The notes under the pieces: model-generated
The model's database searches: none
Seen by the model: the letters and a program-made list of their open reading frames with translations, nothing else
Told to the model about the DNA's origin: nothing
Made by a program: the position numbers and the translations under genes
In this document: one piece after another, positions 19,804 to 20,337 of the stretch
Position numbering within the stretch: position 1 is the first letter of the stretch
Layout of the letters: every line of letters starts with the position of its first letter
Assembly (NCBI GenBank): GCA_012517155.1
Contig: JAAYVN010000032.1
Coordinates: 1-48,945, forward strand
Direction: 5' to 3'
Origin: Ignavibacteriales bacterium
Lineage (GTDB): Bacteria; Bacteroidota; Ignavibacteria; Ignavibacteriales; Ignavibacteriaceae
DNA length: 48,945 bases

Positions 19804-19906
19804 TTATTAATTCAAAATTTCAATTCCTTTGTTCATTTGTTAGGCTTCTGTTGAGCTAACAACCGAATCTCCAATTTCCGGGTGTTAGTTTTAAGCTCAT
19901 AAAAGT

Positions 19907-19957
19907 TCTTAACCGCTAAGGACGCAAAGTTCAACGCAAAGTAACGCAAAGAGAAAA
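19907..19957 (+). repeat. CGCAAAG-rich direct repeat, copy 1
   Basis: The 51-base unit begins TCTTAACCGCTAAGGACGCA and contains three CGCAAAG words. It aligns without gaps to the copy at 20090-20140, with 43 of 51 positions identical by my count. It lies outside and to the left of the inverted-repeat segment. I know similar CGCAAAG-type words as dispersed intergenic repeats in other bacterial genomes, but the family here cannot be assigned. Confidence 0.65.
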
Positions 19958-19988
19958 TAATTATAATGAAAATCATATGTCGGGGCGG

Positions 19989-20188
19989 TCCGACTGAGCA
20001 GGCTGTTGCAGTGAATGTAGAATATTTTACTCAGGCAAAAATTTCTAAAGTTTCTTAGTTGCGAGGGGGTATTCTAAGCGAAAATCAGCTCTTAAACGCT
20101 AAGTACGCAAAGTTTTTCGCAAAGTAACGCCAAGTAAAAACAATCACTGTGACGGAAAGTACTCATTGCAACAGCCGACTGAGTCGGA
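19989..20188. mobile_element. 200-bp MITE-like segment with imperfect terminal inverted repeats
   Basis: The ends 19989-20013 and 20164-20188 are inverted repeats matching at 21 of 25 positions by my count, starting TCCGACT and ending AGTCGGA. Both arms contain GGCTGTTGCA or its complement. The segment has no coding capacity, contains one copy of the 51-base repeat, and separates two pieces of a tRNA-Pro-like sequence. In the alignment it replaces nine bases of the T-loop region. No target-site duplication is evident, so it could be a non-autonomous element or a product of recombination between repeats. Confidence 0.4.
20090..20140 (+). repeat. CGCAAAG-rich direct repeat, copy 2
   Basis: This is the second copy of the 51-base unit, beginning TCTTAAACGCTAAGTACGCA. 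It lies inside the inverted-repeat segment, 183 bases downstream of copy 1 and in the same orientation. Confidence 0.65.
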
Positions 20189-20226
20189 AACCTGCGACCT
20201 TCCCGATTCCATCGGGACGCGATGAA
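20189..20226 (-). pseudogene. Degenerate tRNA-Pro-like fragment with a rewritten anticodon arm
   Basis: These 38 bases align without gaps to 20280-20317 of the intact tRNA-Pro. The first 12 and last 9 bases are identical, while the 17-base anticodon arm is replaced by another 17-base arm. The new arm (minus strand TCCCG-ATGGAAT-CGGGA) still forms a 5-bp stem with a 7-base loop. Its anticodon would be GGA. A further 12-base match to the tRNA-Pro 3' end (19977-19988 versus 20259-20270) lies beyond the inverted-repeat segment. The 5' half (D arm remainder and acceptor) is not recognisable, so it should not be functional. Confidence 0.6.
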
Positions 20227-20261
20227 TTCAGTCTTATAATCCCATTTAGTTTAACCAAATG

Positions 20262-20337
20262 TCGGGGCGGCAGGATTTGAACCTGCGACCTCCTGCTCCC
20301 AAAGCAGGCGCGATGAACCGGGCTACGCTACGCCCCG
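20262..20337 (-). tRNA. tRNA-Pro (anticodon TGG)
   Basis: The acceptor stem CGGGGCG pairs with CGCCCCG, the D arm is TAGCGTAGCCCGGTTCATCGC, the anticodon stem-loop is CCTGCTTTGGGAGCAGG with TGG, and the T arm is GCAGGTTCAAATCCTGC. Discriminator A; no encoded CCA. It is the 5'-most gene of the minus-strand tRNA group and lies next to a degenerate copy of itself. Confidence 0.97.

Follow-up and report, generated by a model that had tools for sequence, protein, structure and literature searches.

A hairpin-scarred tRNA-Pro copy in an Ignavibacteriales contig as the probable relic of a tRNA-targeting GIY-YIG element

The window analysed here, a stretch of 48,945 nucleotides from an Ignavibacteriales bacterium, carries an intact tRNA-Pro(UGG) gene and, beside it, a partial copy of the same gene in which two arms have been replaced by hairpins. 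We consider this copy to be, probably, the decayed right end of a homing-endonuclease-like element that targets tRNA genes, one that has lost its open reading frame (ORF) and was later split by a repeat. The explanation for the copy lies outside the window. At other loci the order is an intact tRNA, a nuclease ORF and a second copy of the tRNA (often its 3′ part only) with an arm replaced by a hairpin (most often TCCCGA...TCGGGA), and the key partner at those loci, a GIY-YIG ORF, is missing here.

The tRNA-Pro locus and its scarred copy

The features of the locus are as follows.

20261..20337, minus strand: intact tRNA-Pro(UGG), called by ARAGORN and matched by Rfam RF00005 at 20262-20337 (66.5 bits); source of the copy
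20227..20260, minus strand: spacer of 34 bp between the tRNA and the scarred copy, with no ORF; other loci have a GIY-YIG ORF here
20218..20226, minus strand: end of the D arm of the copy, TTCATCGCG on the tRNA strand, 9/9 identical to the tRNA
20201..20217, minus strand: hairpin TCCCGATGGAATCGGGA replacing the anticodon arm, with perfect 7-bp arms
20189..20200, minus strand: variable loop and 5′ strand of the T arm of the copy, AGGTCGCAGGTT, 12/12 identical to the tRNA
19989..20188, no strand assigned: dispersed MITE-like repeat of 200 bp; each tip is one part of a TCCGAC...GTCGGA hairpin that takes the place of the copy's T arm
19977..19988, minus strand: 3′ end of the copy, CCGCCCCGACAT on the tRNA strand, a repeat match to the tRNA

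According to ARAGORN and Rfam, genes for tRNA-Arg, -His and -Glu lie downstream of tRNA-Pro, with a partial second tRNA-Pro between Pro and Arg. The original prediction, made from the letters of the window, was that a partial copy had arisen next to the intact gene by duplication. Repeat matches confirm the copy and support that origin: positions 19977-19988 (ATGTCGGGGCGG) fall within an 18-nt repeat (19971-19988) whose counterpart at 20253-20270 is 89% identical, positions 20189-20200 (AACCTGCGACCT) equal 20280-20291 of the intact tRNA at 12/12 bases, and positions 20218-20226 (CGCGATGAA) are identical, at 9/9 bases, to the D-arm side of the tRNA. The scarred copy itself was not called as a tRNA by ARAGORN or Rfam; its 5′ part is absent, and it lacks the combination of both acceptor-stem strands and a D arm that a functional tRNA has.

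The 17-nt anticodon arm of the copy is exactly replaced by a hairpin, TCCCGA-N5-TCGGGA, that differs from the tRNA arm and forms a perfect 7-bp stem with a 3-nt loop (20201-20217). As had been proposed, the same 17 new bases can equally be read as a 5-bp stem and a 7-nt loop with U33 and the anticodon GGA; we attribute that anticodon to a hairpin with a variable loop that happens to give GGA, and the copy bearing it shows no sign of tRNA-Ser identity. The predicted RNA fold of the hairpin is ordinary (−12.3 kcal/mol, z −1.35 versus shuffles). The sequence after the hairpin is AGGTCGC when read on the tRNA strand and CGCGATG on the opposite strand, and neither has the T-run of an intrinsic terminator.

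The T arm of the copy is likewise replaced by a hairpin (TCCGAC/GTCGGA), itself split by the 200-bp dispersed repeat, in keeping with the predicted insertion at the T loop. The inverted-repeat ends that had been described for the insert were found at 19989-20014 and 20163-20188 (26 nt, 85% complementary), and CCGACTGAG, a candidate target-site duplication that may instead represent the palindrome tips, is present at both ends of the segment. The genome-wide search that had been proposed for it did reveal other copies, with 21 other genome matches at E≤1e-3, four of which are near full length and some of which are pieces of one copy or of the inner repeat only. The segment thus has the several copies with terminal inverted repeats that characterize a MITE. 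The ends of many of the copies inspected bear parts of a TCCGNC...GNCGGA palindrome, and solitary TCCGNC palindromes occur at 45 sites in the genome (reversed control, 1). In the window, the palindrome takes the place of the copy's T arm; two relatives (G007 and G021) have solitary hairpins at exactly this position. The simplest order of events, as judged from these sequences, would be that the T-arm hairpin came first and that the 200-bp repeat entered that hairpin later.

Several further features of the repeats were recorded. An 8-bp ATGACAAC repeat, another candidate target-site duplication, flanks one locus, L008, in a repetitive stretch. Within the window, two 73-nt stretches of an ACGCAAAGT-rich repeat (19889-19961 and 20072-20144), one outside and one inside the insert, are 78% identical. 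In three copies of the 200-bp repeat from the same genome (L002, L013 and L017), the mini-palindromes TCCGACTCGGTCGGA and TCCGCCTGCGGCGGA replace short stretches of CGCAAAGT units. A GxxExxY nuclease (PF13366) was considered as the mobiliser of the 200-bp repeat and rejected, since it was found at two loci, both without the ends of the repeat.

The remainder of the window offered no GIY-YIG partner: PF01541 had 10 matches in the genome and none on the window contig (C96). A search of the genome contigs with a neighbouring protein found no relative, and in a plasmid collection the 20 listed of 39 matching records align to the tRNA-Pro part only.

Recurrence of scarred tRNA copies

The claim that the locus is more than a chance arrangement was borne out by recurrence. 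The anticodon-arm junctions (CGCG-TCCCGA-N(2-12)-TCGGGA-GGTC) were found at 27 sites in 15 of 391 genomes of the class (reversed control, 0), and the 21 other genome matches of the 200-bp segment point in the same direction. The strict form of the Pro pattern is also present in named records of Bacteroidota, Ignavibacteriota, Neomarinimicrobiota and PVC bacteria. The search of named records returned at least 118 stretches (L111-L228); among the 118 listed, 71 have a same-strand tRNA called by ARAGORN within 600 bp and 21 have a GIY-YIG ORF. When tRNA calls overlapping the scarred copy itself are left out, 69 of the 118 listed have a same-strand tRNA at ≤600 bp (55 of these being Pro), and one has a tRNA on the opposite strand only. 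Some of the remaining listed stretches, such as actinobacterial records, look like chance matches.

An intact tRNA-Pro was present in 36 of the 37 stretches compared from relatives. Inspection of these 36 by eye revealed downstream partial copies of tRNA-Pro in six (G007, G011, G013, G019, G021 and G039), in all of which the anticodon and/or T arm is replaced or interrupted by hairpin-forming sequence (the T arm in G019 being irregular), as well as copies of the 5′ part of tRNA-Pro, with the same anticodon-arm hairpin, upstream of the gene in three others (G015, G026 and G027). In a comparison in which each of the 37 regions having an intact tRNA-Pro was searched with its own tRNAs (G024, the 38th region, lacks one), 26 partial matches fell outside tRNA genes, without exception on the same strand, versus 19 in 20 rounds with shuffled queries, or about one per round. 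That comparison gave the window's copy an E value of only 0.015 and missed the G019 copy seen by eye. On the reversed-pattern and shuffled-query controls, chance or artefact was rejected as an explanation. When 10 scarred loci were scanned against Rfam at a lax threshold, only tRNA reached the gathering score.

Two of the named records are informative about the Pro(UGG) copies. One from an Ignavibacteria bacterium (L184) carries the same copy sequence as G021, a relative of the window's family, which suggests a place for the window's genome in or near the Ignavibacteriales, and one from Flavobacterium succinicans (L165) is a Pro(UGG) locus of the same type in which the ORF is still present and the copy bears TCCCGATGGTAATCGGGA. 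Among the relatives, the other Pro(UGG) copies inspected have spacers free of an ORF, and because neither those spacers nor the window contains one, the link between Pro(UGG) and a nuclease is drawn here by analogy.

The genome of the window itself contains hairpin-marked copies of several tRNAs: Pro, Asp (three), Asn, Gly(UCC) (one 5′ and one 3′), Val, Met and a tRNA-Lys-like array. It has 25 TCCCGA...TCGGGA hairpins (reversed control, 0), of which 13 lie, by our count, inside scarred tRNA copies. Across many genomes the same arms recur with differing loops: they replace the anticodon arm in copies of tRNA-Pro and -Gly, and the T arm in copies of tRNA-Asp and in Lys-like copies. The original prediction had looked to another tRNA or to a terminator hairpin as the source of the new arm, and neither source is supported: the arms are common to the copies of several tRNAs in many genomes, another tRNA as donor is disfavoured by constant arms with a variable loop, and the hairpin in the window is followed by no T-run.

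At one contig end of the same genome (L272, C13:1-500), six tandem units of about 72 bp, each comprising a tRNA 3′ fragment with a T-arm hairpin and a terminator-like stem, come after the 3′ half of an apparent tRNA-Lys. In partial tRNA-Arg copies of two relatives, the T loop is split by two adjacent small hairpins, as in double-hairpin elements; the hairpin pairs listed for G011 (L274) and G018 (L273) are, respectively, TCCC-AAA-GGGA plus TTCC-GAT-GGAA, and TGC-AAA-GCA plus TCC-TTT-GGA.

The GIY-YIG ORF and its association with tRNA genes

At the Asp, Asn, Gly and Met loci of the same genome, a GIY-YIG ORF of approximately 80-100 amino acids, on the tRNA strand in every case examined, sits between the intact tRNA and the scarred copy. 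PF01541 was the only Pfam domain in the two ORFs tested (E 5e-17 and 1e-16), and the nearest solved chains to the nuclease are those of the UPF0213 proteins 1ywl and 1zg2 (E about 6e-5). The GIY-YIG gene expected of a free-standing homing endonuclease element is present at these four tRNAs and in relatives, and absent at the window locus.

We sampled the best-scoring GIY-YIG locus from each of 29 of 40 relatives, chosen regardless of tRNAs. An intact tRNA lies within 170 bp, always on the same strand, in 14 of the 29; the ORF comes after the tRNA in 11 of these and before it in three. Of the 11 loci having the ORF after the tRNA, 10 carry a repeat of tRNA sequence beyond the ORF, often together with the terminator. 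The repeated parts are 98-100% identical in L313, L346, L364 and L368, and at the Asn locus of the window's own genome the repeat spans 62 bp at 98% identity, terminator included. In L150, L146, L350 and L363 the ORF starts at the 3′ end of the tRNA and stops in the copy: an ATG directly follows the last bases of the tRNA in L150, L363 and L146, and the stop codon is taken from the copy, either from GGTTAG of the D loop (L150, L146 and L350) or, at two other loci, from inside the hairpin (L353 and L359).

No intact tRNA is nearby in the other 15 of the 29 loci. Two of these (L346 and L361) carry tRNA-like remnants; the remaining 13 are without a tRNA, and many of them lie inside other dispersed repeats. 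Inspection by eye of the 16 tRNA-linked loci (the 14 with an intact tRNA plus L346 and L361), which were not chosen for hairpins, revealed exact TCCCGA/TCGGGA arms in eight, another hairpin in five, and none in three (L349, L351 and L367).

Tandem arrays in which the hairpin and the ORF share one period were found in two genomes (317 bp in G148 and 315 bp in G001), which suggests that breaks may also drive local amplification. Elsewhere, five identical-scoring GIY-YIG frames are spaced at 450 bp in a relative (G018:C1:120132-122135). On another contig of the window's own genome (C145; L335/L372), a GIY-YIG ORF lies away from tRNAs, between CCCCGTGAAATA and TATTTCACGGGG, and the same contig has a PDDEXK_3 ORF flanked by CACAGATT-type repeats.

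Were the hairpin a marker of the element's junction, the T-arm junction of Asp copies would be expected beside tRNA-Asp and a nuclease in further genomes. The Asp loci known beforehand were those of the window's own genome, G009 and G004, from which the pattern AGGTCGTCCCGA-N(2-8)-TCGGGAAGTC was taken. It was found at 42 sites in 25 of 391 genomes and 24 of 190 genera (control, 0), two of the 25 genomes having been known before the test. Twenty loci were fetched, two of them from known genomes: 16 have an intact tRNA-Asp(GTC) within 400 bp on the same strand, and 15 have a GIY-YIG ORF within 176 bp on the same strand, with no ORF detected in the other five. Two loci (L386 and L387) have neither tRNA-Asp nor a GIY-YIG ORF nearby. 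The insertion point is thus fixed both at the Pro anticodon arm and at the Asp T arm, with controls of 0.

We then placed 54 nucleases on a tree, built from 78 columns only and with 17 of its 51 inner branches open. Adjacency to a tRNA requires three changes on this tree, compared with a mean of 13.2 after shuffling (0 of 500 shuffles as low); in that scoring the labels of L144, L168 and L198 came from ARAGORN calls that fall on the copy or adjoin it, L186 was scored as having no tRNA in spite of a tRNA-Ala 656 bp away, and six rows were labelled by hand. The identity of the tRNA, with L144, L168 and L198 dropped, requires nine changes over 35 rows (300 shuffles: mean 13.6, lowest 11). Three Asn-linked nucleases group together at 100/96, as do three Asp-linked nucleases and one unassigned at 96/78, and a Pro-rich group of 19 (95/82) includes one Ala-linked, one Lys-linked and one mislabelled member. 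The exceptions are L370, an Asn-linked nuclease whose nearest grouping is with a Ser-linked row, and a minimum of five Pro-linked rows that fall outside the Pro-rich group. With those exceptions, the nuclease lineages appear largely to follow their target tRNA. A further clade (97/96) contains 12 small GIY-YIG ORFs from relatives that lie away from tRNAs, many amid dispersed repeats such as CTTCGACTACGCTCAG or TCATCCTGAGCTTGTCGAAGG (L343, L344, L345, L347, L352, L354, L356, L357, L358, L362, L365 and L371), and is perhaps another partnership between a nuclease and a repeat.

Proposed explanation and relation to known systems

The architecture described above holds at many tRNA genes and in many genomes, on the tRNA strand, with fixed junctions and with nuclease lineages clustered by tRNA. 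From it we infer cutting, homing and a role for the hairpin. The nuclease would cut or nick its target gene, at the anticodon arm for tRNA-Pro, -Gly, -Ala and -Lys and at the T arm for tRNA-Asp and -Asn, and repair from an allele bearing the element would copy in the 3′ half, the ORF and the hairpin. The tRNA would stay whole, its old 3′ half would be displaced, and the hairpin may keep the displaced copy from serving as a target or as a recombination partner. Copies of the 5′ half upstream of tRNAs would need a mirror-image event. At the locus in the window, a Pro(UGG) element would have lost its ORF; a second hairpin stands at the T arm, and the 200-bp MITE-like repeat would have split that hairpin later.

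Small mobile palindromes of bacteria, such as REPINs, Rickettsia palindromic elements and the small dispersed repeats of Nostoc, are short hairpins that enter other repeats and genes; the hairpins described here differ in lying exactly at a former tRNA arm, beside a nuclease gene. A history without a nuclease, in which tandem duplication of the tRNA by slippage or unequal recombination was followed by decay and by neutral settling of the genome's mobile mini-palindromes, is the foremost alternative, and we regard it as unlikely. It draws on the presence of mini-palindromes in other repeats (the 45 TCCGNC sites against one in the control, and those inside copies of the 200-bp repeat), on the many scarred copies that now have no ORF and on the occurrence of tandem arrays. 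It does not lead one to expect that one arm should be exactly exchanged for another, at fixed junctions and across many genera, nor a nuclease between the tRNA and the copy (15 of 20 Asp loci) together with the signals from the tree. Considerably less probable is that the copies are functional RNAs, acting as tRNA-like decoys or processing signals with conserved arms. Arms that still pair despite their new sequence, in copies on the tRNA strand that might be co-transcribed, would suit such a role, but the copies are variously 3′ or 5′ parts and patchily distributed (six downstream and three upstream among 36 relatives, by eye), the 10 loci match no Rfam family other than tRNA at the gathering score, and the fold in the window has a z of only −1.35.

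tRNA genes are known targets of integrases, and a 3′ tRNA fragment downstream of an intact tRNA is what would be seen at attR. We find it very improbable that the locus is the scar left at an attachment site in tRNA-Pro by a genomic island of the integrase type, which would leave unaccounted the replacement of an arm by a hairpin, the upstream 5′-half copies and the units of about 300 bp with a single GIY-YIG ORF. The least credible account is the one originally proposed for the new arm, a one-off recombination with another tRNA (anticodon GGA) or with a terminator hairpin: the geometry does fit an anticodon arm with U33 and GGA, but the arm sequence is common to the copies of several tRNAs in many genera, with a varying loop, and lacks a T-run. 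Of the earlier interpretation, then, duplication and T-loop insertion stand and the source of the anticodon arm does not, and in place of a lone pseudogene with a recombined arm we think it likely that the window preserves the decayed right end of a GIY-YIG element targeting tRNA-Pro.

Among the closest known arrangements is that of mobile ORFs in the fungal mitochondrial genes atp6, atp9, cox2 and nad3, for which one of four nucleases is GIY-YIG (PMC3630166). There, as here, an endonuclease ORF lies behind an intact gene and supplies its 3′ part, the native 3′ part being displaced downstream; a displaced 3′ duplicate lies beyond the ORF in 10 of 11 relatives' loci and at the Asn locus of the window's genome. 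In the material presented in that report, the fungal elements occupy mitochondrial protein genes and their inserted and native parts are strongly diverged, whereas those described here occupy bacterial chromosomal tRNA genes, encode a bare GIY-YIG domain and leave a hairpin scar. We do not assign them to the fungal family because their repeated parts are nearly identical (98-100%) rather than recoded. The phage enzyme SegB is a free-standing GIY-YIG endonuclease associated with tRNA genes; breaks result in amplification of segments that include the tRNA and nuclease genes (PMC13096335). It resembles the present nucleases in target and enzyme class and differs in its phage genome, protein size and setting, and the portions of that report drawn on here mention no scarred tRNA copy or replacement hairpin. 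Standalone Slx1-like and UPF0213 GIY-YIG proteins, for which a role in DNA repair or RNA metabolism has been discussed (PMC1564403), share the minimal domain with no other Pfam domain; unlike the present case, tRNA-gene elements are not mentioned in the relevant portions of that account. A literature search, mostly without subscription papers and without preprints, found no description of hairpin-scarred tRNA copies or of tRNA-nested GIY-YIG elements in bacterial chromosomes.

The window alone is a modest relic, and the interest lies in the widespread class to which it leads: very small nuclease elements found repeatedly in tRNA genes of Ignavibacteriota, Bacteroidota, Neomarinimicrobiota and PVC bacteria. 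They could account for the odd tRNA fragments and the small GIY-YIG ORFs that lie next to tRNA genes, and provide many matched pairs of nuclease and target for work on specificity. They also raise two questions: how the intact tRNA of the host or donor escapes a nuclease directed at so essential and conserved a gene, and what makes a new hairpin, often with TCCCGA arms, so frequent a scar. One tentative possibility is that minimal selfish elements of about 300 bp are widespread and drive through essential bacterial tRNA genes, each lineage of bare GIY-YIG nucleases being matched mainly to one tRNA; the host would be spared because the tRNA is left whole, the displaced copy would be marked by a hairpin replacing the stem-loop that was cut, and the nuclease may recognize tRNA-gene DNA in the form of an extruded hairpin, so that arm swapping could be part of the life cycle of the element.
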